Of a DNA stretch of 64,000 nt, positions 17,001 through 61,714 are shown one piece after another (position 1 is the first letter of the stretch; every line of letters starts with the position of its first letter). The notes under the pieces were generated by a model. It made no database searches, was not told the origin of the DNA, and was given only the letters and a program-made list of their open reading frames with translations. Source of the DNA: Owenia fusiformis (Eukaryota; Annelida; Polychaeta; Sabellida; Oweniidae); NCBI GenBank assembly GCA_903813345.2, contig CAIIXF020000006.1, positions 25,303,936 through 25,367,935 of the forward strand, in the 5' to 3' direction. The position numbers and the translations under genes were made by a program.

Positions 17001-20000
17001 TCAGAGTTTGCTAGATTTCTTTCCTTATTTTGTACCATAGTACCATATACCATAGTTTATGCTCTTGACAGACCCCCCCCACAAACCACATACTGTATAG
17101 TATAGGTTCTCTGAAGAAGCTATCAAATGGTAAATTTTTAGAAGATGATGTATATTCGTCCCAGCTATTTCAGCAAAAAAACAATTTATAAACTAATGCG
17201 TATGAAATAAATTCCAATTTCATATATCTACATGCATGTGCAAGTATATTATTAATAGAATTTTGTATCTTATCTGTTTTAGTCCAAACCTTATTTTCAT
17301 TTCACAAACTCTATTGTGCAAAGATGGCAGCACGAATGTCCGTATTGCGCATGAACTCTCCCACTATTGGTTTGGCTTATGTATTGGAGCAAGCAACTGG
17401 TCAGAAGAATGGCTGAGTGAAGGGTTTGCCACTTTCATAGAGGACCAGTTGCATGGAGTTGCTTTAAATGTAAGTACTAGCCCACCCTGTAATGCTTCCT
17501 TATTCTGTACTGAGTTTACTGACCATCATGTTTTATTATGGAGTTGCTTTAAATGTTAGTACTAGCCCACCCTGTAATGCTTCCTCACTCTGTACTGAGT
17601 TTACTGACCATCATGTTTTATTATGTCACCACCAGAAGTGGTGACATATTGTCATAGTCCCCATCCTTTTTATGGGTGGAGTTTGTGGTTGGTGTTCTGT
17701 GGATGGCATCTGTAACAAATGGCAGATGGTGACATTTTTTGTGTTAATGCCTTGTATAATGCCTTGTATATTGCTTGTCCAGTACAGATTAGGTTTCCTC
17801 ATCATCATACTCTATAAGATGTTGTTTTGTGTAATAGGTTTCATACTAAAGCTAAATATAATCACTTTTTCTGTAAAAACAACTCATCCGATCAACCCCC
17901 CCCCCCAACACACAACTACAATTCACCTCATCTGCATGTTGTTTTTTCAAGATGGAGGAAAAGAAGTTAGAAGAATACTGCCAATTGAGGGCTTTGAGTC
18001 GATATCACACTTTGAAATCTGAGCTTGAAAACACCAATACTGATATCCAAGTTTTAAGGTTAGAATCCAATTTTATAATTTTTTGCTTAACAGCTTAATA
18101 GATTTTGGTTAGCTATTATTGTAAGTAACATATTAGTGTCACTTACATGTAAGGGGTACTATAGCGAAGAATTGAATATGGAACATGACAGTGGGTAAAA
18201 AATAAACATGGAATCTGAAGATAAGTAAAAAATAAAAGGAAAATATGGAATCTTGTGCATTTTTATGTCATTTTTGTCTCCAACTATTTTGAGGTTGATG
18301 TTCAGCAGTCAGTGTCTGTATTAAATGGCAGGTAGTGACATTTTGCAAGTTAATGCTTTGTTAAGTTTTTATCACATTATTAGGAGTAATATTGTTCATT
18401 TTTACCTTATATCTAGTACAGCAGCTGGCAAGATGACCGAAGGGACAGAACAGATCAGTTATGTTAAGAATGGTCTTAATCCAGAGAAAACATTTACTCA
18501 GGTTCATTACCTCAAGGTAGGACCCTATCAGCAAAATCATTCACAGTAAAATCTACCTTAGTGGAATACCATTAAACCTCTAAAAAAGTGTTCCACTTTG
18601 GATTTGTTCCATTTATAGAGGTTCATTTAACATTAAGTTGTTTGGTTGTGTTCCACTTAGAGAGGTGTTCCACTTCTGTAGGTGTTCCACTTTACAGGTT
18701 TCACTATACATGTTACTGCAAAACAGTTCAACAGGTAAACTTTATCTGTTATTTGTAACTAAACTAAAGCACAAGAGTAACTGATCCTTTTTGGATGCTA
18801 TCATTTTTTATTGCTGGGTTATCAGATATTGTGTTTAAAGGTACAAAATATATTTATACCTATTCCGTGAATTGTATGAATCAGTAAAAGAATATATATA
18901 TCAAGAAATGATCAGATATTAGATTTATCCCATGATACCATAAACAATATTATCTACTGTACATGAGTTTTACTTTTGCAGGGATATTTTCTGCTCAAAC
19001 ATTTGGCTTGCATTATTGGGAAGAACAAGTTTCTCAGTTTTCTTAAGATCTATACAAAGACTTTCAGTGGACAGCAAGTTTCATCACAGGTGAGAGAAAC
19101 ATTCAACAATTTTGTTAAAATAGAGACATTCGAAATAAATTGAAGCATTTTTGTCCAGCAAATTTTGAAAAAATATCCAACAGACCTGTGTTAAATTCAA
19201 TTTGTTTGTGAACATTCTGTTGAATGATTGCACACAGTATGTTATATCACTGTTTTGGTTTGTTTCTAGGATTTTTTTAATTTGCTGTTTCTACATCATG
19301 GAGATGAATTAAGGTACATTTACTTATACGGTACTATTCATTGAATTGAATTATTGTAAATGTTAAATGAATAATTGTTAATATCCCAAATCATCAGATT
19401 TTTACCAGATTTTCACACAAAACTCTTTGATCCTCGATTTAAAGGCCTTAGCTATTCTTCCAAAAATTAAATGCATTTTGTTTTGCAGAGATGCTGGTTT
19501 GTCTCCAGACACTTTGTTCCAAACATGGTTAGAATCAAGTGGCATGCCTCAGGTAAATCATTTGAATAGGCCCTTTAGGTTAAATGGCTCTGTTTAAAAG
19601 TGCCCTGTTTAACCTCTTGACTACCTTGGGTGACAAGATTTCTTGTCACCTCAGAAATGACCTTGAAACCCAGAGTGATGAGAAAATCTGTCACAAAAAT
19701 TTTCACTAAAATTGCTCTTATTTCAAGTTGTATTTGTATTTAGTAAATGGTCAAAAGGTGGCAAAAATGAAAAACTCTCTGGTTTCAACCGATTTTAGAG
19801 CCTGGGATTCAAGAGGTTAAAGTAGCCTGTCTGTTCATCCATCAACAATTTTAAAACTGCCCATTGCCTGAACTAATGTTCATATTCATTTTATGTAGAT
19901 GCATACTCAGCCTGGTAATTTTGCATTATTGGTCCATAGCTTTCACTTAGAAAAACTGGCATGTAAGCCCACCAAATGGTGCCATTTTTACATAAACAAT

Positions 20001-23000
20001 ATAGTAGACAGTACGATAATAAGGCAGTTCAATAGATAAGATTGACGCTCAATTTTCAGTTTGAATTGTATTTGTATACAGGTACTGGTATACATCATGT
20101 AGTAGATCTGTTCATAGCATTTACTGTTTGTTTTTGTTCATATGTATTTTGTATTCTTGTTTCTTGAATATAGGAAATAGATGAAATGTTTAATGAAGAA
20201 TGCCTCAGAGGAAACAGCCTGTACAATGAAGCAGTGAAGCAGGTATCTTGTTTATGATTGATTAGAATTATAAAGGTGTAATGAATACCAACCAGCTTTC
20301 AAAGAATGCAGACTGATTTAATCATTTCATTTTCCAAGCATGCGATAAAAATTATGTGTGGAAATTTCTAATATTTGTCATAAATTCTTATCTTATGCAA
20401 GATTGCTCTCACATATATTCCCATATTTAATAAAAAATATAATTTTTGCACATTTTATTATACTTTCAGTCTGAGAGGTGGATGAAATTTGACAATAATA
20501 TCCTGAAGCAGAAGAGGAAACGAAAAAGATCTCAAAATGATGACTATGATGCAATCCTCCCAGAGTGTGTGGAAGTAAGATTATGAAATAATTGGTAGAA
20601 CAAAGTGAATCCCTTTGTGTTTATAGAAAAACAATTTTCAATTTATACATTTGGATTTTCAGTCATTAATGTTAAGGTGAAAGACATGCCCCGCCATCTT
20701 TATATTGTCCTAAAACCCAGGATTATAAGTTAGGTACGAGCAAAAGTATATATTTTAGTTCCAGTTTGCTGATCAGTTAGTGTTGATGTTGCAAAGATTA
20801 GTTGAGTGTGCTAGACTGCAGTACCGGACACTGGACAGTCTGCAGCAGGTCTATGACATGTCACAGCAGAACCCTGATGTAAGCCTTTCCTGATGATTTT
20901 ATACTTTATTGTTCTTGCTTGAATTTAAGTATCCAGGCCTGTAGCCAGGGGTGGTGGGGATCGGGGGGCTTGGCAAAATTTCTTTCAAAATCATCCACTT
21001 TCAAGTGATTGGTCCACAATTATCCAATTGGAACAACCCTGGAATTTAAAAAAACTGAACTCCTCGGCAAAAGCTGGCTACGGGCCCAGTATCTGGTATA
21101 ATCACATTCTAATGTGTGTGTACCAGATACTGTATGTCTGTTGATAAAGGCTGTAAACACTCTATCAGTTGTGCAATTTTGGGAGTTTCTACTGTTATCG
21201 ATGAGGTATTTTGAGATTATTGAAACAATACTGATTTGGGTTTGTATAAAAGTTTCCACCTCATTCAAAAGTGTTCATCTATTGAGGCATGAAGACCATT
21301 TTAATACTTATTTTATTTTTCCTTGAATTTTTGTGGCATGCTCTATGGACAAAACTGATAAAGAATGCAAGTTGCATGTTGTAAATGACCAAGCAGTGTG
21401 ATAAGAAAGTCAGTCAAAAGAACCATAAGGAGGCATAGGCCCTAGTGACATCTGATCTACTGCTATACATGACATCTACCTTGTAAACCTTCATGTCGTG
21501 TTCTTCCCAGTCCACCTCAAAATTTGTTATGAATATTCAATTTTTTTACAGGTGAGACATCTATGGTGTGAACTGGTAGTGAAACACAAGTACAGTAAAG
21601 CTTACCAGGATGTCAGGTTATTGCTGATTAATGACCAGGTAATCACTTAAATACAAGTTGTGTTCTATTTTGCTATATTTCCAAGACAACGTGTGCAGTG
21701 CTCACACTATATCAAAATCGAAAATATCTGGCAAGAATGTGGCAAGAGAAATGATCAAAATAATTTTTAGAAGAAGTCACAGTTGTTATTTGTGTCAGAC
21801 TGAACCGTTATATGATAGGGCGAAATGTGAAAATATTTGATTTTACTTAATATGCGCAATTAATTTTTCTGTTATTTTAGGAAAGAGTCAATAATACACG
21901 TATATCTGTAATTAAAATCTTGTTCTACAGTAGAAAAACATGAAAAACTGACATGAATAAATAATTTTGATAGGTACAATAGTGATTGTTTCTCTGTAAA
22001 ACATGTACATGTTATGTACAGGGTGGTCAATAAAAACGGCAACCCTAGTTTTGTCATTCTAAGAAATAACTCCCTGATATTTTACACATTTGTACATCAT
22101 TCAATTTCCTACCAAACTACCATGTTTCATGACCATGAGACTGATAGTCACAATATTACTTCATTTTAAGCAACATGCCCCATATGGCCACTTTTGGGCT
22201 GTCTGAGCTGGTCTCGTATTACCCTGCGTGCAGAGTCTAGTTAAACTACACTCTGCCTAGTAGAGACCATATTGCAGTTTAGTAGCCCCGCCCCCACGAC
22301 GGGTTCTGGTGACAGTTTGGGTAATAAATCACTTCTGACCTACGCACTGACATTTCTTCCACTAATCAGCGAGCTTGAAGAAACATACGCCAAATGCGTT
22401 CTAATTAAATATGCACATGTCATTGGTCAATTCCGGGCTCAACGATGACGTCAGAAGGAATGACCATATATAGAACGTCGGTCAAATTTGGCTGACGAAC
22501 ACTGATTGGCGCGGTGATTTCACAGGTTTATTTTAGTTTGAAAGAGTGAAGACGAAGCTCTCTTTTAAGAAGTGAAGTCAAACGAATGCAAAGGGTAGTC
22601 TCGTATTCAAATGAAGCACTGGTAAACTCTAACAATTATGTATTCTTGGGGAGCCAAGCACTTGATGAAGTAGTGGAGAGGCACCTTCACACAGACAGAT
22701 GCACAGTTTAGTGTTCTCAGAAAACAGGGCTCTTTACCTTTGATGATACCAACGGATATGCAATAACTGTCAACATCAAACTCTATTTTGTGATTCCCAT
22801 GGAGTTCTTGGGGACTTTAGTTGAACCCAGGGGGGTTGATAGGCAGCAACAGTGGTTCCAACAAGACAGAACCATACCCCATACACCCAATGATGCACTA
22901 TAATGGCTTTGGGACCACTTCAATGACCACATTATCAGCAGTACAACAGACAATGAATGGCCACCCCATAGCCATGATATGGCCCCATTTAATCTTTACC

Positions 23001-23567
23001 AGTGGGGATACCCCAAAGATAGAGTGTAGGGTAATAACAACAGAAAGACATTTGACCTCAATATAAAGATCACATGTGTGGTTCAGGCCATACTTGCTGA
23101 GGAATGCAGTTAGGTCATTAACAGGTTTGGAAAATGTGTGCAGGTTTGCCTACAGCACGATATTGGAAAACTGGGGCACCTTTTTTAAAGTGCTGTAACA
23201 TCGCAACTATCAGTCCAATGTTCATGAAATAACGCAGTCTAGTATGAAATTGAATGATGTACATGTGTGCCAAATATCAGGGCAAAATTTCTAAAAATGA
23301 CAAAGATATGAGGAAAAATTAGGGTTGCCGTTTTTTTGACCACCCTGTACTTAAATTGTACTTAATTATGTACTTGAATTTGCCTGTATTCTGAATTATA
23401 TGTTGTTTCAGTCTATGGGGGTATATTTGTATGGTGAAATGATGCTATCAGGATGTAGAGTACAACAGGGACTTGCAAGAGACTGTTTTAAAGAAATATC
23501 ACATGACATGGAACCAGCCACATATACAACAGTACACAGTATGTTATACGGTACCCCAGGGACTTGA
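14040..23567 (+). CDS. AOPEP: Aminopeptidase O (M1 family metallopeptidase), complete 15-exon gene
   Basis: Hand-built exons: 14040-14608, 15783-15943, 16345-16453, 16748-16942, 17283-17469, 17952-18058, 18417-18516, 18982-19089, 19270-19313, 19489-19552, 20174-20242, 20470-20574, 20759-20878, 21552-21638, 23412-23567. All are GT-AG and in phase, giving 726 residues plus stop, somewhat shorter than the vertebrate protein. Exon 5 holds the zinc site HELSH, then 18 residues to the next glutamate ligand (HExxH-x18-E), followed by WLSEGFATFIED. Exon 2 carries the family's substrate-domain motif (SWINNRSFFPAQD). Exon 12 has a basic KQKRKRKRS run, like the nucleolar signal of the mammalian enzyme. 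Exons 13-15 match the helical C-terminal domain. The enzyme should remove N-terminal residues from peptides. The stop codon (23565-23567) lies inside the first unit of a minisatellite, so the last few residues probably derive from the repeat. Confidence 0.93.
14935..15740. mobile_element. Foldback transposon with tandem-repeat arms in aminopeptidase O intron 1
   Basis: Left arm (to about 15055) is a tandem run of CAACCCCAAGTCAACT/CAACCCCAGTAAAACT. The right arm (from about 15596) is the same in inverted order (ACTTGGGGTTGAGTTTTACT). The outer ends carry CAGGTCATCTCAACCC and its inverse. A 9-bp duplication CTTCATTCT flanks it at 14926-14934 and 15741-15749. Arms built of short tandem repeats plus a 9-bp duplication are the classic foldback arrangement. 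The right end lies 42 bp from the exon 2 start. Confidence 0.75.
17455..17624 (+). repeat. 85-bp tandem duplication covering an exon donor
   Basis: Units 17455-17539 and 17540-17624 differ at only a few bases. The first 15 bases of each are the end of aminopeptidase O exon 5. The first junction reads AAAT|GTAAGT and the second AAAT|GTTAGT, so the second donor is a weakened copy. Confidence 0.85.
17625..17800. repeat. Dispersed GTGACAT repeat family
   Basis: GTCACCACCAGAAGTGGTGACATA and the following text (including GGCATCTGTAACAAATGGCA) recur inverted at about 53085-53215. A third, shorter relative lies near 18290-18380. Function unknown. Confidence 0.6.
18545..18710. repeat. Dispersed 'TGTTCCACTT' repeat
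   Basis: Starts ACAGTAAAATCTACC and ends TTCCACTTTACAGGTTT, with inner GGAACAC/GTGTTCC strings. Relatives lie near 24975-25075, 30120-30320, 30380-30700, 39103-39260 and 41610-41650. The ends are imperfect inverted repeats, so this is probably a MITE family. Confidence 0.55.
19613..19816. mobile_element. piggyBac-like MITE (TTAA target)
   Basis: A 204-bp element beginning CCTCTTGA and ending TCAAGAGG, flanked by TTAA at 19609-19612 and 19817-19820. The CCY-start plus TTAA duplication is typical of piggyBac relatives. Lies in intron 10 of the aminopeptidase O gene. Confidence 0.7.
20934..21088. mobile_element. hAT-like MITE, family A copy 3
   Basis: A 155-bp shortened copy (left end CAGGCCTGTAGCCAGG, right end GGCTACGGGCCCA), flanked by the 5-bp duplication GTATC at 20929-20933 and 21089-21093. 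Lies in intron 13 of the aminopeptidase O gene. More diverged internally than the other copies. Confidence 0.7.
22019..23347 (+). mobile_element. mariner/Tc1-type transposon with decayed transposase
   Basis: A 1329-bp element in the last intron of the aminopeptidase O gene. Inverted ends CAGGGTGGTCAAtaAAAACGGCAACCC (left) and its inverse (right) are flanked by TA at 22017-22018 and 23348-23349. About 22850-23035 encodes, with stops, WFQQD...PHTPND...EWPPHSHD...WGYPKDRV, the DDE catalytic region of IS630/mariner transposases, with the two visible aspartates about 36 residues apart. Stops and shifts show it is inactive. Confidence 0.85.
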
Positions 23568-24775
23568 ACAGCAATATGAGACTACAAGCTACCTCATATG
23601 GCATAAAATATACTATGTACATAGACAGTACACAGTATGTTATACGGTACCCCAGGGACTTGAACAGCAATATGAGACTACAAGCTACCTCATATGGCAT
23701 AAAATATACTATGTACATAGACAGTACGCAGTATGTTATATGGTTCCCCAGGGACTTGAACAGCAATACGAGACTACGAGCTACCTCATATGGCATAAAA
23801 TATACTATGTACATAGACAGTACGCAGTATGTTATATGGTTCCCCAGGGACTTGAACAGCAATACGAGACTACGAGCTACCTCATATGGCATAAAATATA
23901 CTACTGTACAGTACGCAGTATGTTAGATGGTACCCCAGGGACTTGAACAGCAATATGAGACTACGAGCTACCTCATATGGCATAAAATATACTACTGTAC
24001 AGTACGCAGTATGTTAGATGGTACCCCAGGGACTTGAACAGCAATACGAGACTACAAGCTACCTCATATGGCATAAAATATACTTCTGTACATAGACAGT
24101 ATGCAGTATGTTAGATGGTACCCCAGGGACTTGAACAGCAATATGAGACTACAAGCTACCTCATATGGCATAAAATATACTATGTACATAGACAGTACGC
24201 AGTATGTTATATGGTTCCCCAGGGACTTGAACAGCAATACGAGACTACAGCTACCTCATATGGCATAAAATATACTATGTACATAGACAGTACGCAGTAT
24301 GTTATATGGTACCCCAGGGACTTGAACAGCAATATGAGACTACAAGCTACCTCATATGGCATAAAATATACTATGTACATAGACAGTACGCAGTATGTTA
24401 TATGGTTCCCCAGGGACTTGAACAGCAATACGAGACTACAGCTACCTCATATGGCATAAAATATACTATGTACATAGACAGTACGCAGTATGTTATATGG
24501 TTCCCCAGGGACTTGAACAGCAAAATGAGACTACGAGCTACCTCATATGGCATAAAATATACTATGTACATAGACAGTACGCAGTATGTTATATGGTTCC
24601 CCAGGGACTTGAACAGCAATACGAGACTACAGCTGCCTCATATGGCATAAAATATACTACTCTACATTGACAGTACGCAGTATGTTAGATGGTACCCTAG
24701 GGACTTGATTTATGCTAAAGATACAACAGTACGCAGTATGTTATTTGGTACCCCAGGGATTTAATCAACAGGCTT
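23525..24775 (+). repeat. ~95-bp minisatellite containing the aminopeptidase O stop codon
   Basis: About 12 full units of 90-96 bp plus degenerate ends. Each contains GGTACCCCAGGGACTTGAAC and CTCATATGGCATAAAATATA. The first unit overlaps the last ~13 codons of aminopeptidase O, including its TGA. Long open frames on both strands across the array follow from the 96-bp (3 x 32) unit and are not taken as genes. Confidence 0.9.
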
Positions 24776-26951
24776 TTAAAAATTTGGACTAGTCTTTACG
24801 ATTGATCTTGCCATAGAAATTGGTCTAGATGTTACAATAGATTCTTATAGCTGCCTTATGGGGCAATTGAATTAACCAGAATGTGTGCCTAAGTCTGCTT
24901 AGTAGAGTATGTAAATGGACATGAAATTTTACCAGTTCCTTATTTATTTTTAGATCTACCTTTCATTCATTCAGTTAAACCTGTGCAAGTGGAAAGCTTA
25001 CGAAACCTCAAAATAGTGTTCCACTTTGGGGGTGTTCCCCTTACAGAGGTATTACATTTAACAAAAGGTTAAGGTGGCTTAAAGTGCTGCTTATTTTTTC
25101 GTGAAGTCACTCAGTAAAATTACGATTTCTCTGCACCCTGATGTCCAATCAACATCATTCGAGTATGTATGTGTTCCTGACAGTTTGGGCATCCGGTAAT
25201 GACAACGTCTACCCAATGTTTGCACGCAAAATTGAAATCGTAATTTTACTGAGTGGCTTTACAAAAAAATAAAAAGGCTATACGCCTCGTTAAACCGTAT
25301 CTTACACTGTGAATTGTATACAAGGTGAGCCAAAAAACATAATCTTTGTTTGAGTTAAGTTTTTTGGCTCAGCCTGTATCTGCTACATAGTGAATTGAAT
25401 ATGATCTGTCACCAAGTAGAATATGATATACAAAAAATCAATATATTTAATGAAATAAATCTTATTTATTTAAATCAATACTCAGTTTTATATACAAATA
25501 GGCATTATGTTTCTAATGTCTCCACTTTTATGTCCCAATATTTATGATCCACATTGTGAAGACATTAAAACCCTATTAACCACCATTGCACAAGTGAATT
25601 TTACATTTGTGAATTTTAAAAAAGCTAAATTAATTTTACAATGTGTAAAACAAAATTTAATTTATTAATCTCACTAACTGTGAAGATTTGCCAAAAGTAA
25701 TGTAAAAGGGCTGTTTTTTCACAGAACATATTTATGAAAACCTACATTGATTTTTTGGAAGCACCTTTGAAGCAGAAGGGATAGAGAGTGAATTGAAATA
25801 AATCAATGATGTTTCTTCAAATTGAATCTTCACCTTTCCTTGTTTTAGTTACTTAAAATGATTTTGTGTACATGAAACCAGAAACGGCAATATCACAAAT
25901 GCACTTTAATAAGTAAACCAAACACACATCATTTCATCAGATTTCTCTATTCTTTTCTTTCAGAAAATAAAATCTGAATGAGAGAAACACTAGCAATTAT
26001 GCCTTTTGTTAAAATGAACGCTTCCAACATTTTAATTTGACTCCTTATCACTTCTACTTCTTTTAACTTCAAATGCATATAATTAATCAATTGTGTACTA
26101 CTGATCTCTTGTGTTTATTTTGACCATGTCTTTATTAGTTTGTGTATTAAAAACGAGCCCTTTTAAATAACTATTTGGCAAACAAAATTATATAAAATGC
26201 ACCTAATACTGTATGAGGTATAATAAAAAGAACTTGACAGGGTGTTCATGTGTAAATATTTTCATAAAGCATTCTTATTTTTGAATATACATGTGTATTA
26301 AACATTAATCATTATAGTATATTCATTCTACTGTTACATTTGCTAGAATTCTCTGACCCAATTCAAAATGTTTTCCATTGGTGGTCTAAAGTAAAAGATT
26401 CTTCAAAATGTGAAGAAATCAAAAATTATGCATAAAAATATTTTTTAGTTGTGAATATTTGATTGGCATAATAATACTGTTTTTGTCCATCCCTCTGTTG
26501 TACAGTTGTACTAGCGTTTGCAATATGTACACTCCTCTTAAAAGTTTAGAAACAATTCCCTACAAGAGTAAACCAAACATTCTTTGAACTTGTAATCGAG
26601 AAAAAGTTCAAATTCAAACATAAATGTTCATTTTAAGTGTAACATACTATCCAATTGTGACTCAAGGTTTCTTAACTTTTTGAGTGTGTAAGCTAACAAA
26701 CTATTTCTTAAATCTTACAACTTGAGATGCCCGCTCCAATCCTCCGATACGTTCCAGTTTTGTAATTGGTCATTTAGGGGGCAATACGCTTTAATATTAT
26801 TGTGTGAGTTTTATATTATTTTACTCCTCAGAATACAAAAATATACTACCCTAGTACACTGCAAGAAGTACACTACCCCAGACTCCTAGTACTCTGTCCT
26901 AGGACTGAACCCTGTTCCTAATACACTTTTCCAGTACACTCTTCTAGATTC
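24776..26951. other. Intergenic stretch downstream of aminopeptidase O
   Basis: AT-rich. It holds a TGTTCCACTT-family repeat near 24975-25075, a foldback near 25105-25258 (arms around CACTCAGTAAAATTACGATTTC), and a ~60-bp palindrome at 25320-25378 (arms GTGAGCCAAAAAAC / GTTTTTTGGCTCAGC-like). CCTAGTACACT-like strings recur at 26845-26965. No exon was recognised. Confidence 0.5.
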
Positions 26952-31182: not shown

Positions 31183-34069
31183 CTTTGGCACTTTTGATTG
31201 GCACTTCTGAATGGTACTTTTGAAAAATTTGGTACACTTCTGATTTGTACCTTTGAACAATTTAAAATTGTTAATATAATTCAGATTTCGTATCAACTAT
31301 GTGTGATCACATCCCCTGAAGTAACAATATCAATGGGGCACTGTCCTAAATGATCCTAATCCAGTTGTACAGTCCTTAAAGATTCAGGGGTCAATGTAGC
31401 TCCAAATCGCCCGAGCATGATCCTATTTAAACTTCTCCAATGGTACAGGGGATGATAAAAAATTAGGAACACAGCCTTCCGTAGAACTGCTGATATTTCT
31501 CTAGCGTGTCTGGATGGGGTTGATCTATAATCTACATGTGTACCTTGGTGATAGAGATTAGGGACTTTACTAAACAAGAGACCCCTTCAAAACATTGCAA
31601 CAATGGATTACGGGATCAAATGCTTCCTCTTCTCGTAGATATAGCATAATCCTAGAATCCAAGTTTTCAAACATTCTGGAGTATTTTCTCATATAAGTTT
31701 AAAAAATTCAAATAATAGACACAGTGTGAATAATTTTAAATTCACATTAATCAATTTTGCATAGATTGTTTTCCAAAACAAGCAAAAATTTCAAGTTCAA
31801 GGTTTCAAGGCAAACACTATGGCCAATCATCCTGTAGAGAGTTTGATCAATATACTTTGAACGATTCCCTTGACATTAGTTTGTCTGAAGAGTTTTTCAA
31901 TACCACGACAGGAAGAATACCTTTGTTGAATATCCAATCATATTTTATAAGCGGGGAAAGTAAACAAAGACTATGAATATAATCGAAGCAACAGCAAGAC
32001 TGTATTGTCTCAGGGCCCTTGACTACTGTCTCTATCTGATAGCTTAAAATCCATATCTTTATCCAGCTAATTATACCTTTGTGTAATACAAAAACTGCAA
32101 TGGACCAGAGACATATGATAACACTCATCTCTGTTTTATATGTCTCTGAATAGACCAATAGGCTATTGGTAGTGCAACATATATAAAATCATTGGTATAT
32201 AAGTCTATGAACTACAATTTATTTTTTTGATAACATGTTAAAACTTTATTTTATTTCAACCTGATATAGATAATATCCTAATATTTTATGATTAGTCTGA
32301 CATTCAGGTAAACCCCCCCCCCTTTCTATCTAATTCCCCACCAAGAGCTAAATCAAGATGGGGGAGGGGGGGGGGGGGGCGAGCAATACAGGATCTTGAT
32401 GCAAGCCTAAAGTTAACTGAAAGTAGGTTATAGTAACCTTATTTTTAACATAGCCATTTTTTCATTTTCTGTTCTTTACATTTATTAACCTGTTGGTATT
32501 TGACATATATAAAAATGATGAGAATTTACATCAGATACAAACTAAGGCAAATATGTTTCTTAAGGTAGAAACTGATGAAGCTATATGTATATTGTATATT
32601 GTTACTATTAGATAGATGTATATTGTATATTGTTACTATTAGATAGATGTATATTGTTACTATTAGTTGCAGTTCTTATAGTGTTGTCAACATTTTCACA
32701 CAAACGTTTACCCCGAAGAGAAGGGGTCTAAAAGACTAAGTCGGGATTAAAAATGATTAGCTGATTATTGCCATTGTCTAGATTTTCAATAGGCAAGAAA
32801 ATATAACACAATATCGAACCACAATCCTCTTAAACAGAAAACGTTCAAAGAATACAGAATTTCAAGTTGTGTATTTCTCAATGAAACCATGTTGTTTGGT
32901 TCTGTTTTGTTGTTCATAATCCTATTGCTCTGATATTATTTATTCACTTATACATAAGAGTCCTCAGACTGAAATGGATTATCCACTTAATCTTAAAATC
33001 TTGTAAAATATGTTTGTTAGGTCCATGATGTTTCTTTTACATAGAATAGCTATGAATGATATCCTTGTTCTGGTGCCAGAGAGATTGAACTTATAGGGTC
33101 TTTGTATTTTCATTTCATTTTCTATTCAAACAAAAACTTAGTTCAATGAATGTCAAAAGGTATGAAAAGTATAACAGAATCACTTTTGTCTTGAGGTGGA
33201 TTTGGAGGAATATTTGTTTCAGCATTTATAGATGTCATAACAGTAACCTGTATTAAGAATTTGTAATATGACTATTGCAGATTTGTGAGTGGCAAGGGCC
33301 AGAGTTTACCCCCTAAATGTGTATTTTGGGACCATTTCGTTAATTCATTAAGAACCTGGAATTTAGAACTTTTAAGCTACATTGTTTCACATTTTGGAAT
33401 AATAAGCTTCACTTTTTCGAAAAATGGAGACAAATTTGCAACAGCTTGTCAATTTTCAGACCCACCAATGGGACCATTACATGGGCATTTATTCATTTTA
33501 TGTGGAATATCATCAATTTAAAACATTGACTATGGCATACATTCTAAAAATTTATTGGCTACAACTGCTACATATCAACATAATTTGGCACATCTATCTA
33601 TGGTTAATAACAATTTATCATAACTGCCCCAAGGTACAATAAATCTACTTTTGAAGGGCCTTATTAAGGCTAAAAAACAAAATCAATTTATCTTATTTCT
33701 GTTTTGACCTGCATTCATGTTCATGCTCCTTTCAAATATTCTCAAGAATATATTCTTTAGTTCTGTATATTCATTCCATAGTTTTTCGAAATATTATTTC
33801 ATATTTTCTCAATATCAGCAAATGGATAGTCAAAATTGGCAAAATATGAGGAAATTTGGCATTTTTCCAAGAATATGAGACAATAGTTGGCAATCAAAAC
33901 TGAAAAATAAACTGCAAAACTTAAGGATTTTTTCGTTTTTAAAGAAGGCAAAATTGGCAATATTAATATTTTACATTTTCTCAAAATTGGCATTTGCATA
34001 AAGTTCCTTCCAGTAAATTCGAGAAATTCTAGCGAACTCCCATTGACGCTAAACTACATTCACAAATAA
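31183..34069. other. Intergenic, no gene recognised
   Basis: AT-rich sequence. A minus-strand frame of 73 codons at 31356-31577 reads protein-like (YRSTPSRHAREISAVLRKA) and follows an AG acceptor, so it could be an unassigned exon, but no family was recognised. Short TATATTG-type tandem repeats lie at 32580-32660. Confidence 0.4.
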
Positions 34070-37000
34070 TTAAACTTTTTTTGAGTATTTTTTCCAGGCT
34101 TTTTGTATGACTTCAGCAGCCAAACGAGCCTGTCGTATCTTCTTCACTCGTTCCTTCTGAGACGTCACTTTCTCCATAAATGTTGTCTCCCGTTTGTCAT
34201 CCGATAAAGCTTTTACTTTAGAAGGTCCTTCCTCAAATGTCAATGACGTCATTGTGGACTCATTATTGGCTTGTGGTGCTTCGAATGTAAAATGGCGTCT
34301 CCAGTCTTGATTTGTATGCGTATGGCTGGTATGTTGTTTTAGTGGCGTACTTGTAGAGTGGGTGTGGACTGTACTGTCGTCATAGCTACCAGCTTCTGAA
34401 ATGACATAGCCATAGATACTAACCTTTGAACAAAATTAGCACCGACCAATCACAAATAGTGATTTATTCAGAAGGAATGTGAATTTGTTTAGCACTTTCA
34501 AAGAATCATTGCATGTGGCTCTGGAGGATCATGTGAGCCTCCCCCACAAATTTCATTCAGGAAAATTTTGACATTGTTCTCTTGAAAAATAAGCTTTTTG
34601 GTCAAAATTGGCACATTTTGTATCAAAATTTGCATCTTTTACAGCAAAACTGTCATTTTTTGATAAAACAAAATTTTGATTGATTGACTGGAAAGTTAGA
34701 TTACATCATTTTACCAAATCAAATCATTTGGGACTGCAATAAATTTCTAAAATACTGGAATACTATTTGTGAGCGGATTTGAAAAATGTAGAAAAATTTA
34801 AAACTGAAAACCTAAACAAATTTGCATGTTTAAGCTAACAGTATTGCAAAAAAACTATGCATGTAACTAACTGCATGTATAGTAGCAGAGCTACATGCCA
34901 GTTTTTCGTATCAGCTGCTGGTACATGTTTAATTCATGTCTTACTATGAGAGATTGGAGAATCATCTGAGTATGATTCATGACATCTATAAATAATGTGA
35001 GAAACTAAATTGTAACTACATGTACATTTTATGGGACAACATGACCTCCAAGCCGATCATAGATATTCTTCCATCAGCCATACTCTATAAATACATCTAT
35101 GACTTCTATAACTAAAAGTTTTATAATGATATAAACTTTAAATGTACATGATATTAACACTGTTGAGATACAATGCGTTGTTGGTAAATTGGTGGTGATA
35201 TAAAACTATAACTTTTGACTGTTAATATACAATGTATTGTTGTTGTGTTGGTAATTTGTGGTGATATTAAGTATAAGACTGATAAAAATAGAACACTGCA
35301 GTTTGTTGATGTGGCCAATATAGTCAGCTTAACTTTTTGCACTTGTAGATAGCAAATTGCATCAGCCTATCTAGAACATTCTACCTTTAAACAAAATTAA
35401 CATTAACCAATCCAATACTGCAAAGTATCTAAAAAGTCCAGAATGTTCCACAGAAATGTATATAAAAGCAGAGAGCCCCTAGATCTGTTGTCCTCCACTT
35501 AAACTACTGAAAGTTCTCATCGCTCACATTGTTTCACAAATTACGTGCTGAGTTTTCATACTCTGGCACACTCCGACATGACACAACACGGATAACAACC
35601 ACCATGATTCAAGACCAACGATTTTGTGATGAAAAACGAAACGTGTAATACCAAACGATGGACCCCCGGGTCTTTCTAGGCCCGGGGGATTCGAAGCAAA
35701 CTGCAGATGTCTGTAGAGGTTGGACCAGGCCTGGAGGGGTGAGAGGGCTCCATAAACAGCTGCGCAGTCATATTACCATATGCTAGTGGCGGATACCTCT
35801 CACACACGCCCTTCAGGCCACCAATGGCACTAACTTGGAGGCTTCTAATATATCAACTTGAAGTCTCACTTTGGTGACAATGGAAAGCTTTTACTCAACA
35901 TTTATGATCTTTAACAGGTACAGGTAAATGTCAGATATTTTTGTTGACTTATTTTTGCAAACTGGCCTTGCATCATGGGTTACCCCCCCCCCCCCATTAT
36001 ATCAATACTTTCATTCAGACATTGCTTTACAAATAAGGAGATGATGGGGGGGGGGTAAAACTTGATGCAAGCTGTATTTACATTTTTTGCTTTTGAAATG
36101 CTGGTATATATACATACATCTGTAATTACATGTAAATTTTATGAGCATAATATTTTTATATTGCTATTCTGAGTGTATCAGATTGTGTTATCTTTTCAAG
36201 TAACATTGAGTGGAAAACTATAAAAACAACAAAAATAATCTCTGCCTTTACAGAAATTTTCACCGCGATCTCCATCCAATAGTTTCTTTCTTTTCTCTAT
36301 GTTCTATTATTGTGTATAACATAAAAATTGAAATGAATTATTAAACCTCATATCCATGTTTGTTTATACTGTATATGGTTGAACCACGTGGTCTGTATGG
36401 TGCAATTCACAATATGCTTAAAATAGGCAGGAAAAATATCAAGTGGAGTGCTGATTCATCCTTTATTGGAACAATATCAACACTGCAATATCGTATTGAC
36501 CTTACCAACTAAACCTACACAGTATGCTCAAAGTGCAATTGTAAGCACAATCTATTGATAAAACTGCAAATGTAAGCACAGCTAACCAATCAATCCCAGC
36601 ATAATTCTTTCATCATATACTAAATTTCATGAACTCTATTGGTTGATTATATCACATGATCTATACTTTGCCTCATGGGAAATTACCTCATTCTGTATTC
36701 CAAGTGTTCAGCGCCAGTATATAATCTGGATAAACCCTGTATATTTCAGTCTACTACTCCAAACTCTAAAGACCAGAGACGCCATTTTCAGGCAAATCTG
36801 GAACTCTAGGGGGTAGGCTCAATCGAAACATGCTTACTTCGAATCAAAAGATGACTGACAAAGAGATATACAAATAACGCTTACTTCGTCTTGACTGCAC
36901 TTTTTAGTGCGTCAAAACACGGTGACACTCAGCAATGAGCTAGCCACTGGTTATACTCAGCAATGGGTTAGCCAACAACTTTTTTCAATTTTTTTTTTGG

Positions 37001-40000
37001 TCCAACGGGTGACGGGTCCCATAGCGACTACGCAATCAAGAGGGCTGCCTCTTGCCAAGTGGAGGGACCCTATCCCAGAGGACCCCCAGGCATTGAGGGT
37101 AGGGGATGATGTTAGCTTAACCATCACCTCAATTCTCAGCTATGCATGGGGAACAACAAAACATCAGACTAATAGGAACTAACAGGAACAAGACACAAGA
37201 AACTCAGGAACTGGAAGGACCAGCACAACTAACTGAGATATGCACGGAACTGTTATCAACATAATGGCTTCTTTCTGGAAAGTGAGTCTAATATCACTCT
37301 ACTATATAAATTGCATTTGGTGTTCATAAGCAACCATTTTGGCTTATTAGTAATGATAATGTTTTTACATTCAATGAAATTCATGCAGCACAACTAAATC
37401 TAATGGTGTTCTGTTATATTGTGCCCAACTTCATAGAAAATCTATCAATTTTAACTAACTTCATTGAAAATCTATCAATTAAATTGTTAAAGCTTGTTGC
37501 TATGTACAAATATAGTGCTTTAGTGAACAATGCCTGTGCTATGTGTATACAATTACATGATGTACAAGTACTGTATCGTGCATGCTTTTGCATGTGGGTA
37601 CTTTTTTTGCAAAAACAAGAATTGTCCATAATTGACTAAAATTATGACTGCATCAAAATGGAGGGGGGGGGGCGTATATCTTAAAATTATGCTTTTGGGA
37701 ATTTTGTAACCATTCTCATGTTATCTAATGAAACCTAATTCATTGATCATACATTCATTGAAAAGTTTATTTTTTTATTGGATTGTCCCTCACTTCAAAA
37801 ATACTGGATATTCTGAATGTGTGTAGTAACAATCATATATGAAAAGCAAAATAAATCTTTTATTCTTAATCCTGTGTCGTTTGACCACACATCCCCCTCA
37901 AAGCTCGTTCGCTTCACTCATGGCGTATACTCACAAAATACCCATGCTACACCACTGTGTTGAATGTCTTGATTCCCCAATATGTGACTCTGACAATCTC
38001 TATTTCATGGTATTTCTTAATAAATCTACTATACACAATATACACAATATACACATATTATTTTTACTCCCTTACATTATCATGTAATGAATAGTACCGG
38101 GTACTTGGAATGTGGTCTTAATTAACCAGCTGATAATCTGATAGTGTCTACATTCCCTCAACAGATATAACCCTTTGCAAATATTTGATTTTGAATCTCA
38201 AAGTGAGGAGTTCATAGGTGCCCATATGCCTTGGAGCTTCTGACTTTCAGTGTACTCAGCACAGTATATATTTTGATACAATGGGAATGTTGGAATTTTG
38301 CCCGGGGTTTCACTCCAATATACCTCTTAATACCTATGTACCCTTTTTGAGCATTTTTTCCATGTCAATTTCCTCTCAAGATTGAAAGTTTCCATGTATA
38401 CTTCCTCTCGAACTTATAAAAGGGAGTAAAGTTCCTGAAATATTGGTGTATAACTATGAAATCCACTTTTTAGGTGATCCCAGACCTCGCCAACTGATAT
38501 TACCGATTTATTACCATGTTTTTGTAGAAAAACTGATTTTTGACTTAAAAAAGGCTCTCTCTTCAACAAATTTTCCATGTTTATTTCCTATCAGATTGGC
38601 CAGCTTTCATGGTTTTTGCCCTTAGCCAAAATTGCTCCTGCTGCACATGACTACCTAAATTACTTAGAGTGAGCCCCCGGGGTATTTTGTCTGCAGTGTA
38701 CATTTACCCAGTTAAAAAGCTGAAAATTGGATGCCACCATGTTGACTATTCTGTTTGCACCATACTTTAAGAATGGAATTGGAATATTTTGAGGGACAGA
38801 AAATCCTGGGGAGACCATGCTAGGCAATGGGTGATACAAAGTGTTTAAAAAATGGCAGCGCAATCTAACCTCTTAGAGAATGAGAGGTGCTGCCATCTTT
38901 TTATCAAACGAGAACCTAACCAAACCCGTCTGGCCCAGTTATCCACTCCTGACGGAATCGGGGAGTAGATAACTGGGCCAGACGAGTTTGGTTACCTAGA
39001 ACCTATTCACCAATATCATGAATACATTCCAACATGAGAAATTAAATGGAGCTAGGGTGTCATAATTTGCAAGTAGTTATTTATCCCTATCCCATTTCCA
39101 TATACAGTAAAACCTGTTTCAGTGGAACACCTTTTTTAGTACCTTTAAAAAGTGTTTCACTTGGGAGGTGTTCCACTTATAGAGGTTCATTTAACATTTT
39201 GGTCTTGGAAACTCAGAAGAGTTCAACTAACAGAGGTGTTCCACTTTACAGGTTTCTATTATGACTTTTTCAAATAAAATAGTCATCATTCATGGTGTGA
39301 GATAGTCTTACATCCAGTACCACCCCTCAGGCCTCACTACTTCAACATATTAATTTCAAATCTTGCCCCTATATACTTCTTTTGCTAAGGTACACTCCCC
39401 TCTATAAGTTTGATTTGATCTTTTGGATCACTTATTGAAGCCTGTTTACGTATGTTTGGCGATTTAAATTAATCAAAGTCGCAATATTCTGAACTAGTGA
39501 ATGAAAACTTCCAATTGCCAAACAAATTGAGGGGAGTGTTGGGTGTACAGAGGGAGGGCTGCAAATGCTTAATGCAAGACCATATGGAAAACATGACTTA
39601 CTGGGTTTTGAGTATGTTTCTCCACTTATTGAGGGGAGTGTTGGGTGTACAGAGGGAGGGCTGCAAATGCTTAATGCAAGACCATATGGAAAACATGACT
39701 TACTGGGTTTTGAGTATGTTTCTCCACTTATTGAGGGGAGTGTTGGGTGTACAGAGAGAGGGCTGCAAATGCTAAATGCAAGACCATATGGAAAACATGA
39801 CTTACTGGGTTTTGAGTATGTTTCTCCACTTATTGAGGGGAGTGTTGGGTGTACAGAGGGAGGGCTGCAAATGCTCAATACAAGACCATATGGAAAACAT
39901 GACTTACTGGGTTTTGAGTATGTTTCTCCACTTATTGAGGGGAGTGTTGGGTGTACAGAGGGAGGGCTGCAAATGCTCAATACAAGACCATATGGAAAAC

Positions 40001-43000
40001 ATGACTTACTGGGTTTTGAGTATGTTTCTCCACTTATTGAGGGGAGTGTTGGGTGTACAGAGGGAGGGCTGCAAATGCTAAATGCAAGACCATATGGAAA
40101 ACATGACTTACTGGGTTTTGAGTATGTTTCTCCACTTATTGAGGGGAGTGTTGGGTGTACAGAGGGAGGGCTGCAAATGCTTAATGCAAGACCATATGGA
40201 AAACATGACTTACTGGGTTTTGAGTATGTTTCTCCACTTATTGAGGGGAGTGTTGGGTGTACAGAGGGAGGGCTGCAAATGCTAAATGCAAGACCATATG
40301 GAAAACATGACTTACTGGGTTTTGAGTATGTTTCTCCACTTATTGAGGGGAGTCTTGGGTGTACAGAGGGAGGGCTGCAAATGCTTAATACAAGACCATA
40401 TGGAAAACATGACTTACTGGGTTTTGAGTATGTTTCTCCACTTATTGAGGGGGGTGTTGGGTGTACAGAGGGAGGGCTGCAAATGCTTAATACAAGACCA
40501 TATGGAAAACATGACTTACTGGGTTTTGAGTATGTTTCTCCACTTATTGAGGGGAGTGTTGGGTGTACAGAGGGAGGGCTGCAAATGCTTAATGCAAGAC
40601 CATATGGAAAACATGACTTACTGGGTTTTGAGTATGTTTCTCCACTTATTGAGGGGAGTGTTGGGTGTACAGAGGGAGGGCTGCAAATGCTAAATGCAAG
40701 ACCATATGGAAAACATGACTTACTGGGTTTTGAGTATGTTTCTCCACTTATTGAGGGGAGTCTTGGGTGTACAGAGGGAGGGCTGCAAATGCTTAATACA
40801 AGACCATATGGAAAACATGACTTACTGGGTTTTGAGTATGTTTCTCCACTTATTGAGGGGGGTGTTGGGTGTACAGAGGGAGGGCTGCAAATGCTTAATA
40901 CAAGACCATATGGAAAACATGACTTACTGGGTTTTGAGTATGTTTCTCCACTTATTGAGGGGAGTCTTGGGTGTACAGAGGGAGGGCTGCAAATGCTTAA
41001 TACAAGACCATATGGAAAACATGACTTACTGGGTTTTGAGTATGTTTCTCCACTTATTGAGGGGGGTGTTGGGTGTACAGAGGGAGGGCTGCAAATGCTT
41101 AATACAAGACCATATGGAAAACATGACTTACTGGGTTTTGAGTATGTTTCTCCACTTATTGAGGGGGGTGTTGGGTGTACAGAGGGAGGGCTGCAAATGC
41201 TAAATGCAAGACCATATTGAAAACATGACTTACTGGGTTTTGAGTATCCACTTATTGAGGGGGGTGTTGGGTGTACAGAGGGAGGGCTGCAAATGCTTAA
41301 TACAAGACCATATGGAAAACATGACTTACTGGGTTTTGAGTATGTTTCTCCAGTAATAGGGGATGTTTCAAGATACTTGGCCAGTTTGCTACTCTGAGGA
41401 GAGGATCCATTGCTTGTTACCTGAAACATTAATAAATGTTGGAAAATATGAAAATTTATGTATACAGGGACATACCTTAAGTACATCATGGACAAATGAG
41501 TACTTAGTACTGGAGTGAATAGTTTTACAGTATTTACATTGCAATGAACATGGCAAAAAGGTCTTTTACAAACCAAAATATATACTGAAAAAAATGTACT
41601 ACTATTTACAGTAAAATCTATGTAAATGGAATGCCACTGGGACCCTAATTCAAAAGCATTTTCCTTAATAAATAATTATAATAAAAATGTACATGTGATT
41701 GTGGAAGAATGCTTCAACTGGAAATAGAGAGACAATTGATTCTTCAACATTTCCCAAATAATGTACAATGAAATCCTGAACTTTAATTTACCTTTGAACT
41801 GCTTGTCGGTGTTGCGCTTTGTTCGATTTTCCCAAGTCTATCACCCCATATTGACTCGACACTGTAATCTTTTCCATTGTAATCTTTGCTCTGCATATAG
41901 GTGGCATTGCTGGTAGTATTATCCAGGTAGCCATTTTGAATTTCTGGTGATTTCTGATGCATATCTCGCTCTTTACCAGAAGGTGGCTTTTTATAACTCG
42001 AATGTGGCTTTTTAGTGTTATTTCTGGCAAACTGATCATAGTGTTCGGCTTTGACAGTTAAAGATTCGTTATTTGTAAGCATTTTATTCAAAGCTGAGTC
42101 AAAATCTCCCGGAGCCTCCATCTGATTATTCCAGTCATATGTATTATTGTTTACAGTGCTGCCATCTTTATAATGTGGCGATAATTCTTTTTCGCGAGGG
42201 TTTCCATGATTATTCAAACTTGAGCTTGATGAGTATTTATCGGGAATTTCCTCAGAATAAAGAATTTCAGTTTGACTAGGTTCCAGATTTGATTTTTCCA
42301 ATGATCGTGACAATGTTTCAAAATGTTCAATTGATTGCGAAGTTGATTCATAATCTACTACAGAGTCAAATGGATCTGTTCGATGTTTTTCTGGGGCAGT
42401 TTTTGGTCGCCCCATGACACTAGGGTCTGTGTCGTTCATACTTAACAACTGGTTAAAGTAAGTGTCATTCTTAGTACTGCTTTTAGTAAAAGGATCTGTG
42501 GTGATTGATTTTGCACTAAAAGGGTCAATATTATGGCTCCGATCACCAAATGGGTCATCATAACCAGGACTTTTACTTGATGAGGTATTTGTATTATTTC
42601 CAGTTTGAGATCTATGAAGAATTTCTTCCCTACTGTCATAATTTTCATGGGTTGGTATGTTACGTTTTAAAATTCCAAATGAGACATTTTCGGCAGATTC
42701 TGGCCTCACTTGTTTCCCTGAGTATGCATTATCCCATCTATTAGAAGAGGTCTTAATAGACTTTTGAGAGGACCCCTGAGTAGCACCATTATGTAATTGG
42801 TTGTTATAGGCCTGAGCACCAACGGTTTTAGCTAACAAAGCTTGGACATCAATAGCAAAGGCATTAGCCCTTGGTTTCTTTTTAGCCTCAGTGTTTCTTG
42901 AAATCAGTGTATTCTCATCAACAGCACCAGATTCAATCTCCTCGACATTCAGATCATCGGTTGATTTAACAGCACCATCTGAGTTTACATAACTTGGTGA

Positions 43001-54632: not shown

Positions 54633-55504
54633 TCAAGAGTATTTAGAAAGATCAAAATACTTTGAACACCAAAACAGATGTACATCTTGAATCTGGACAG
54701 TGTCCATTTCATTGGAGGATTTGCTGCATTCAATTTCAGTTGTCATTTCATTGTATTGAATTTCATGTGTTATTAAATCAGATTGACATTTCATTGGGGT
54801 TGAATTTTGAATTTTTGAACACTTCATTCTATTTTCATTAATTACACTTATTGTCATATATTCATCGCTATCAATAATTTTTCTTTTATTTGCGTTTGTC
54901 ACTGCACTTGGTATAATTCTGGAGAAATTTCTTGTTGTTATTCTTATATTGGTATTGATCCTGCTAATTTTTCTGAGCTTTAATTCATCATCTGGGTGTA
55001 TTTCAAGTAGGTGATGAATCATATCTGTAAATTTCTTACACCTCCTGTTTGTGTTGCAATAGTAACATTCGAATCCTAGTCTGAAATAAAATGAAAACAT
55101 TTTAGTATGCATTAGAATTATAAAATACTCACCTGCCGTAGTCCTCTCCTAAATTTTCGGCAGAGTTCTACTAAGGACTTGTACTGTAACAAATTCGGGC
55201 TGTTTAAAGGATCTAATTACATGCATAGATGGTGGATGGGGTCATCATCGTTCAATTATAAGCTTACCTGGATAATTGGTAGCTTAGCAGTTGATCGAGA
55301 GGAAGAAATAAATGGAAATAATTTGGCGGTTTTTGGAATTTGTTTTTATCTCAGCAGCACATGCCAATAGGTCGGCGTTTTTATAGTAAGCTGTCAAACA
55401 TAGGTACTTTGAGTATCATTCTTTTAGGAAATTCAATAATCGCTGGTATACAGCTTGAAAAACAATCAAAATGTTGGAAAGAAAACTTACCTCTCTTCAG
55501 CCAT
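54633..55504 (-). CDS. Small two-exon zinc-finger protein, unknown function (153 aa)
   Basis: Exon 1 is only 14 coding bases (55504..55491, MAEE plus part of Arg) with donor GTAAGT. Exon 2 is 55080..54633, with acceptor TTTCAG and a TAA stop. The joined frame gives 153 residues. Residues ~10-35 form a C2H2-like finger (FECYYCNTNRRCKKF.., then HHLLEIH), followed by a basic region and a Ser/Asn/Glu-rich tail ending in DLSKYS. There is no repeat array of fingers. Role unknown; it may bind nucleic acid. The promoter region has an inverted duplicate at 53.3 kb. Confidence 0.65.
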
Positions 55505-59710: not shown

Positions 59711-59756
59711 TTAAGTGAGTATAACAATATACAGAATCAACCATTATATGATCTTA

Positions 59757-59952
59757 TTATCCCACCCTAATCTTTAATCAATAAAAGGTTAATCTAAATT
59801 CAACAGTTGTACATCAAGTTGAAGATTTGTAAACGCTGCCCAGGAGTTGCATATCGTTCTCAAGAGTTGTATACGATGAGTGTTGGTTTTATATTGCAGT
59901 TATACAATGCTATTATACAATCATATAAAGCACTTATATAGGGTGGGATAAT
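59757..59952. mobile_element. Short MITE with ATTATCCCACCCTA ends
   Basis: Ends ATTATCCCACCCTA and TAGGGTGGGATAAT are exact inverses about 165 bp apart. The interior has no coding capacity, and the duplication was not resolved. Confidence 0.6.
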
Positions 59953-61549: not shown

Positions 61550-61714
61550 TTTATCCTTCAAATGTTCTTGATATAAACCATTGGAAAGTACAATACTTGC
61601 ATGCTGCTGTTTATTGTTTGGTGAAGCCATCTGATACTACATTGTACATAATTATGAATATGTTGCTATAGCAATGACATACCACAAATTCAGCAGTACA
61701 ACATAGGTAAATTA

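Follow-up and report, generated by a model that had tools for sequence, protein, structure and literature searches.

Long-unit tandem arrays at exon ends of an annelid genome resemble the mirage minisatellites of lancelets

Why should tandem arrays in one stretch of DNA so repeatedly include the end of an exon? The window considered here, the whole 64-kb stretch of Owenia fusiformis DNA that was analysed, contains only three arrays with a unit longer than 48 bp as detected by TRF. An earlier note had placed three such arrays at exon boundaries of two genes and named, as possible causes of the coincidence, duplication linked to splicing or RNA processing, or selection favouring arrays that keep or mask a functional end. 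The arrays do exist near the coordinates given there, with units of 85, 96, and 102 bp; the observation stands with corrections and is thus partly confirmed, and its interpretation is partly supported.

Both host genes could be modelled, their splice sites being inferred from the sequence. The 15 exons of the plus-strand gene (14040..23567), separated by GT-AG introns and closed by a single terminal stop, encode an M1/LTA4H-type protein of 726 aa, which matches the Pfam families PF01433 (Peptidase_M1), PF09127 (Leuk-A4-hydro_C), and PF17900. The minus-strand gene (55504..34068) comprises a 743-aa open frame in six exons. Its former designation as an IQ-motif gene goes back to a motif and is not borne out by Pfam, which gave no IQ family match for the 743-aa protein at E ≤ 1. 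The exons concerned are:

17283..17469, plus strand: exon 5 of the aminopeptidase O-like (M1/LTA4H-type) gene, donor TTAAAT/gtaagt (15-exon model and Pfam)
23412..23567, plus strand: final coding exon of the aminopeptidase O-like gene, ending in TGA (gene model and Pfam)
55491..55504, minus strand: coding exon 1 (MAEE..) of the minus-strand gene (gene model)
52463..52595, minus strand: exon 2 of the same gene (gene model)
43502..43720, minus strand: exon 3 (gene model)
41792..43240, minus strand: exon 4 (gene model)
41330..41420, minus strand: exon 5, acceptor tttcag/GTAACA, donor AACCCA/gtaagt (phase 1)
34068..34395, minus strand: last exon with stop, phase-compatible with the array-3 donor

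The arrays and the repeats beside them lie as follows:

17453..17625, plus strand: array 1 (TRF: 85 bp x 2.0, 96% match)
17618..17696, plus strand: dispersed repeat adjoining the right edge of array 1
23529..24708, plus strand: array 2 (TRF: 96 bp x 12.4, 95% match)
24727..24770, plus strand: detached and diverged partial copy of the array-2 unit (89% over 44 nt)
39526..41352, minus strand: array 3 (TRF: 102 bp x 18.0, 97% match)

The 85-bp unit of array 1 joins the final 17 nt of exon 5 to 68 nt of intron; its two copies agree at all but 3 of the 85 positions, and the decoy donor reads gttagt. An ATG is common to the unit start and the downstream flank. Array 3 is built alike, its 102-bp unit consisting of the final 23 nt of exon 5 of the minus-strand gene and 79 nt of intron, with a gene-side copy whose donor (CCCA/GTAAGT) is phase-matched to the exon at 34395 and with GT in all 17 of its 17 decoys. 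Hence an exon boundary is included, with donor and exon sequence, in arrays 1 and 3, as had been claimed for all three, whereas array 2 carries a stop codon instead: its unit spans the final 36 coding nt, the stop, and 3' flank, and the Leuk-A4-hydro_C match ends at residue 720, within its first copy. TRF returned array 2 at period 191 as well. In the collapsed window, with units placed at random, 3 of 3 arrays hit such an end versus 0.30 expected (p=0.001), a figure that includes the coding end of array 2 and comes from the same window in which the pattern was first noticed.

A fresh sample from the same genome consisted of 29 gene-centred pieces holding 35 arrays with a period of at least 40. 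The pieces cover 10 of 14 M1 loci (that of the window excluded), 9 of 13 TCP1 loci, and 10 of several dozen kinesin loci, and one (L017) includes 2,972 N. Loci were chosen from match lists before any repeat scan; these lists had already revealed one tandem exon (C2), which enters none of the rates, and a repeated fragment in L002. Exon ends were taken from an exon finder trained on its own check genes, which recovered 85/85 training anchors, a set omitting some weaker or stop-bearing matches, and in the window 18/21 left and 17/21 right ends of exons that were also in training. Predicted exons lying at least 90% within an array were removed before counting. Inside L019, dozens of exons were called.

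Long-unit arrays straddle exon ends about twofold above chance, a modest excess that bears out in fresh DNA what the earlier note had asserted for the window. Altogether, 17 of the 35 arrays straddled a predicted exon end versus 8.45 expected (p=0.0007), a count in which L002 and L019 4946 enter through ends shifted by in-frame read-through of the array, an L028 array (period 678, P=0.78) enters through a predicted end likely to be a decoy, L028 1-737 is booked as a non-straddler, and two arrays are missing, namely a 39-bp array of L028 starting at a donor and an array of L008 ending at most 2 bp from a predicted exon end. Judged by its motif, L028 1-737 reads as an acceptor followed by a kinesin-like exon start. 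At an exon score cut-off of 8, the figures were 16/35 versus 7.04 (p=0.00025), and with protein-profile exons only, without the gene finder, 8/35 versus 3.5-3.7 (p=0.011-0.018). Holding the host intron fixed, 13 of 21 testable arrays straddled versus 7.74 expected (p=0.007), with neighbouring exons assigned by hand and with L030 2711 kept even though it sits between exons called on opposite strands; the 14 arrays outside this test were 4 straddlers and 10 non-straddlers. An earlier version of that count, with a false exon interrupting one intron (L023), gave 10/16 versus 5.5 (p=0.009).

The period cut-off was first at least 50 and later at least 40; over the first 25 pieces, the former yielded 10/25 versus 5.54 (p=0.03) and the latter 13/28 versus 5.82 (p=0.0015), and the four added pieces by themselves gave 4/7 versus 2.6 (p=0.21), the L028 array of period 678 being one of these four hits. 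Arrays of short period (8-40) gave no clear excess: they straddled in 3 of 66 cases versus 2.7 expected, and with profile-only exons in 2 of 63 versus 0.6 (p=0.12), which is not perfectly flat. None of the 35 long-unit arrays lay wholly within a predicted exon. With each array collapsed to roughly a single unit, 13/13 straddlers from the first 25 pieces had their exon end called anew under at least one of two variants, and 11/13 under both. Arrays 1 and 3 of the window regained theirs too; collapsing did not recover the coding end of array 2.

How much of this is mere geometry? Units of about 100 bp among short introns could make straddling common with zero excess, and indeed, with introns as short as they are here (a median of 381 bp over 216 introns), chance straddling reaches about 24% under the piece null and 37% under the host-intron null, so that the former assertion that random placement would rarely hit exon ends was too strong. 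Chance alone accounts for the 8.45 of 35 and 7.7 of 21 expected above, duplications with fewer than 2.5 copies lie close to the null (4/12 versus 3.85), and ancestral introns may have been even shorter, in which case the expected rate would be higher at the time of duplication. Much of the recurrence of arrays at exon ends thus follows from short introns, yet the roughly twofold extra remains under both nulls, and multi-copy arrays of at least 88% identity in testable host introns straddled in 10/10 cases versus 4.7 (p=6e-5, post hoc). Geometry without any excess is therefore unlikely. The copy-number and identity splits were all made post hoc: arrays with at least 2.5 copies straddled in 13/23 cases versus 4.61 (p=8e-5), and genic ones lay on an exon end in 13/18, although the copy-number split as such falls short of significance (Fisher p=0.29). 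The excess shows in multi-copy arrays and not in two-copy duplications, which suggests that exon ends are favoured during amplification or persistence rather than at the initial duplication. A bolder proposal, which we take seriously while leaning somewhat against it, would make exon ends preferred sites of amplification in this genome: duplication would be blind and amplification or homogenisation would not, nearly every young multi-copy long-unit genic array would lie on an exon end, and mirages would be a general feature of animal genomes, not of lancelets alone, driven by a mechanism linked to transcription, chromatin, or base-composition steps at exon edges.

Our preferred reading, to which we assign a probability of roughly three in four, is that the arrays are locus-private minisatellites of the mirage type, produced by ordinary local duplication and tolerated. 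A tandem duplication of about 40-160 bp would by chance span an exon end or, for array 2, a stop codon, and unequal exchange or slippage may later have increased and homogenised the copy number. We infer that the outermost copy, still joined to the exon body, would provide the working splice site or stop codon, being the first copy at a donor and the last at an acceptor, and the array would be tolerated because this exon-side copy can still splice. The remaining copies would be decoys in the intron or 3' flank, evolving neutrally in the sense of showing no detectable constraint. Concerted evolution that spares the edge copies, as in the mirage type, may apply here too: 15 of 17 straddlers are 88-99% identical, and decoys diverged from the edge copy more in the exon part (0.079) than in the intron part (0.038), values that include array 2 and to which misalignment at the edges contributes.

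Could the decoys instead be maintained by selection, as used splice sites or coding segments, for instance as alternative donors of array 3 adding 34 aa each, or through buffering, masking, or U1 recruitment? GT or AG is intact in 106/109 decoys of 15 arrays, and array 3, with a unit of 102 bp (3 x 34), is open in the frame of exon 5 across 1802 of 1804 bp. Against this, splice-core columns of the decoys (10/116 variable) were as variable as other intron (36/360) or exon-derived columns (75/814), in a comparison where the L026 boundary was placed one base off, which gives no support to the earlier suggestion of selection for a kept or masked functional end. Furthermore, in 4/15 (L002, L019 4946, L023 4684, and array 3) most of the array can be read through in the exon frame, and kinesin decoys, read by eye, reach an in-frame stop. 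As for a coding VNTR, whose repeat would be translated under constraint, array 3 is open in frame, but exon-derived decoy columns were no less variable across the arrays. A bias towards in-frame units was considered and dropped, periods divisible by 3 in 8/15 splice straddlers versus 5 expected being too weak. We regard such maintenance as improbable, and a Rogers/Hellsten-type intron gain, said to proceed by tandem genomic duplication, as more improbable still: here the array would be the new intron, with both flanking exon ends derived from the unit. In L028, an array fills 97% of one intron and leaves 24 bp unique; this intron is the sole positive, trivially so, as the array comes within 24 bp of the far exon; in 15/16 arrays tested, window arrays 1 and 3 included, the far exon end is unlike the unit (4 of 20 arrays had no far exon in their piece). 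Least credible of all is that the arrays are parts of mobile elements, or of a dispersed satellite, that insert at exon ends. The dispersed repeat beside array 1, with at least 40 other genome matches, might invite that idea, and it starts with a palindrome of 10-nt arms (ATGTCACCAC..GTGGTGACAT) read from the letters themselves, below the 14-nt cut-off of our palindrome search; unit 1, however, is host exon plus intron, and the genome-wide matches come from the adjoining repeat. Units 2 and 3 were found at their own loci only (14/14 and 18/18 genome matches, in a search that ignores very common words), which argues against a mobile element.

Tolerated local duplication, which is what the arrays look like rather than a working device, has a close counterpart in amphioxus. 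Mirage minisatellites are known there in Adh3, globins, troponin C, and PGBD5 (PMC3087553, PMC3902484), the Adh study being that of Canestro et al. 2002 as cited in both; their units of 10-160 bp lie over an exon-intron boundary, 5' or 3', with many AG/GT decoys and reportedly undisturbed splicing (PMC3087553, PMC3902484). The globin genes are described with equal architecture, and RT-PCR is said to suggest regular splicing. Likewise, arrays 1 and 3 of the window have units lying across an exon-intron boundary (that of array 2 spans a stop codon instead), AG/GT is kept in nearly all decoys, and both boundary types are involved about alike, with 9 donors and 11 acceptors among 20 straddlers, both window cases being donors. 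Unlike in the amphioxus reports, 35 arrays were counted here in 29 pieces, with up to 34 copies and one stop-codon case. Human genes in segmental duplications also carry internal tandem repeats where exon and intron meet, and splicing can remove them; these repeats differ in their 30-bp mean units and in having been found by paralogue comparison, and they are interpreted there as a source of new introns and alternative transcripts (PMC2812944). Intron gain by tandem genomic duplication (PMC4974935; Rogers model via PMC3087553) shares the tandem duplication with splice signals, whereas there both exon ends would have to come from the unit, unlike in 15 of the 16 arrays tested here. Among annelids, earthworm metallothionein genes harbour minisatellites in intron 1, similarly large arrays in gene introns, for which the available text describes no exon-boundary unit (PMC12783039), and that of a Daphnia tandem-repeat paper holds nothing on exon ends (PMC3152781).

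In lancelets, mirages were reported one gene at a time. With a second genome, where about half of the arrays with long units near sampled genes lie on exon ends, counting can test whether exon ends are prone to amplification or such arrays are merely tolerated. Arrays of this kind also confuse gene prediction and greatly lengthen introns. In the kinesin loci, one exon start carries an 18-copy array of 159-bp units, and one intron consists of apparently two arrays back to back.

Tandem arrays whose unit spans an exon end, here termed straddlers, are a known kind of feature that is unusually common in the present genome. The known kind, according to the accessible text of the respective papers, is represented by the lancelet "mirage" minisatellites, whose unit spans an exon-intron boundary (PMC3087553), with PGBD5 and troponin C added as further cases (PMC3902484), and repeats at exon-intron boundaries also occur in human segmental duplications (PMC2812944). 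In the text available to our literature search, which covered few subscription journals, we found neither a test of array placement against exon ends nor the name mirage for such arrays beyond lancelets.

TRF returned 27 rows for the window, with a period above 48 in three arrays:

17453-17625, array 1, 85 bp x 2.0
23529-24708, array 2, 96 bp x 12.4
39526-41352, array 3, 102 bp x 18.0

The earlier note had placed arrays 1 and 3 correctly within a few bases; array 2 is real as well, but ends at 24708 and is followed by a diverged partial unit copy at 24727-24770. Its statement that all three include an exon boundary holds for arrays 1 and 3, which copy donors, whereas array 2 repeats a coding end instead. 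The observation is real, with corrections.

Arrays 1 and 2 belong to a plus-strand gene of 15 exons (14040-23567) with GT-AG introns, encoding 726 aa with a single terminal stop. Pfam matched this protein to Peptidase_M1 (2.4e-24), Peptidase_M1_N (2.8e-6) and Leuk-A4-hydro_C (1.2e-14, residues 611-720, reaching the profile's final position), and its top-scoring solved relatives are leukotriene A4 hydrolases; the candidate name aminopeptidase O, proposed previously, fits this domain architecture. Array 1 has a unit of 85 bp, 17 from the very end of exon 5 (17283-17469) and 68 from the adjoining intron. Between its first and second copy 3 of the 85 positions differ, the decoy (the copy not joined to the exon body) carrying the donor gttagt. 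A 3-base microhomology, ATG, opens the unit and recurs directly after the second copy. Furthermore, a palindrome with 10-nt arms adjoins the right edge, opening a dispersed repeat (17618-17696, GTCAC..GTGAC palindrome at its start) with at least 40 further genome matches; stalling at this palindrome possibly triggered the duplication. By eye, a second likely member of this repeat lies at ~53140-53220. Array 2 repeats the final 36 nt of coding sequence together with its stop codon and flanking DNA; since the end of the Leuk-A4-hydro_C profile falls inside the first copy, this copy holds the C-terminus. The host of array 3 is a minus-strand gene of six exons (55504-34068; 743 aa), which had been called an IQ-motif gene, a name that found no backing as no IQ family was matched in the Pfam search. 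Here, the unit consists of 23 nt of exon 5 and 79 nt of intron, the latter including the GTAAGT donor. Units 2 and 3 had no match beyond their own locus in the genome searched and are therefore local.

To assess placement, our null positioned one ancestral unit rather than the entire array, because additional copies contribute no exon ends. With arrays collapsed, 3/3 straddled in the window against 0.30 expected (p=0.001), counting the coding end of array 2. As the pattern had been noticed in the window itself, fresh DNA was fetched, namely 25 gene-centred 10-kb pieces, later extended by four to 29, from M1, TCP1 and kinesin family matches. Exons were called by a small gene finder trained on the same genome, which recovers 85/85 protein-profile anchors and, in the window, 18/21 left and 17/21 right exon ends, anchors and window exons both being part of its training set. 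At periods of at least 40, 17 of 35 arrays straddled a predicted exon end against 8.45 expected (p=0.0007); at periods 8-40, 3/66 did so against 2.7 expected. The four later pieces on their own yielded 4/7 against 2.6 (p=0.21). Restricting exons to protein-profile ones gave 8/35 against 3.5-3.7 (p=0.011-0.018), with 2/63 against 0.6 in the short-period control (p=0.12). The strictest null, in which the host intron is fixed, covers 21 of the 35 arrays, leaving out 14 including four straddlers, and gave 13/21 against 7.7 (p=0.007). When arrays were collapsed before exon calling in the first 25 pieces, both variants of this procedure re-found the exon end for 11 of the 13 straddlers, and one or the other variant did so for the remaining two. 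Straddling is thus about twice the geometric expectation. Random placement had been supposed to hit exon ends only rarely; given the short introns of this genome (a median of 381 bp over 216 introns in the first 25 pieces), however, geometry alone makes straddling frequent, and the roughly two-fold excess comes on top of this.

The excess was seen in multi-copy arrays, by a post hoc split that is itself not significant (Fisher p=0.29): 13/23 arrays with at least 2.5 copies straddled against 4.6 expected (p=8e-5), and 4/12 with fewer copies against 3.85. Under the host-intron null, all 10 testable multi-copy arrays of at least 88% identity straddled against 4.7 expected (post hoc). None of the 35 arrays lies entirely within a predicted exon, as expected if such arrays are purged.

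Likeliest, in our opinion, is a course beginning with a local duplication blind to exon ends, which would survive because the copy attached to the exon body continues to provide the site; the array would then grow via unequal exchange, its decoys being neutral. Base composition, transcription and chromatin steps at exon edges are conceivable factors favouring growth there. The interpretation in the earlier note is half right. Selection keeping or masking a functional end, as suggested there, found no support: among 20 straddlers (four with a single decoy, hence no columns), variable decoy columns numbered 10/116 in the splice core, 36/360 in the remaining intron part and 75/814 in the exon part, so that tests of function on decoy sequences were negative. 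GT/AG is present in 106 of 109 decoys across 15 arrays (GT in 17/17 in array 3), a retention for which homogenisation alone could suffice. Array 3 is open in frame across 1802 of 1804 bp, and its decoys could in principle provide 34-aa insertions; no coding constraint on decoys appeared across the arrays examined. Creation of introns by array duplication was rejected: the far exon end is dissimilar to the repeat unit in 15/16 arrays, and hence new introns do not arise by this route.

Kinesin genes supplied further arrays. The family search listed one 38-residue motor fragment 18 times on one contig (C2), at a spacing of 159 bp. The piece containing it (L026), fetched because of its array and counted in no rate, holds 17.9 copies (TRF) of a unit made up of ~38 nt from the end of the intron, acceptor included, and ~120 nt from the start of the exon. 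Only the final copy leads into the complete exon, and decoys meet an in-frame stop. In another piece (L028), a kinesin intron (1-2058) reads as two abutting arrays, 39 bp x 34 starting at the donor, then 145 bp x 5 carrying an acceptor, extending past the piece end and, from its appearance, also carrying the start of the next exon. A second kinesin intron there (3048-3966) is 97% repeat array, with 24 bp left outside before the next exon; the ancestral intron was apparently very short.

Several other features were observed. Within the aminopeptidase O-like gene, intron 14 harbours a ~1.36-kb element with inverted ends (22005-23361; arms of 48 nt outer at 75%, 21-nt core at 95%, 153 nt inner at 75%), perhaps a degenerate DNA transposon. 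Short-unit arrays of GTCAACTCAACCC and GGGTTGAGTTGAC at 14940-15052 and 15592-15737 are mutual reverse complements, forming an inverted minisatellite pair (100-nt arms, 92% identity, 539 nt apart). By eye, a 596-aa open frame (6231-8021, plus strand) is reverse-transcriptase-like and LINE-like in appearance, and several RING/B-box (TRIM-like) frames form a small local family on both strands (57124-62792). Related frames opening MAKIYNK.., one long and the rest shortened or broken, span 45296-51958 and by eye suggest local gene duplication with decay:

45296-45856, plus strand, continuing in another frame at 45772-46215
48521-49465, plus strand
50474-51958, plus strand

Elsewhere in the genome, hemerythrin gave no match and innexin gave 34, which fits a protostome rather than a lancelet. 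The innexin matches include eight near-full-length single-exon frames (six on contigs C12/C263, one on C2, one on C6), which points to an expanded family.
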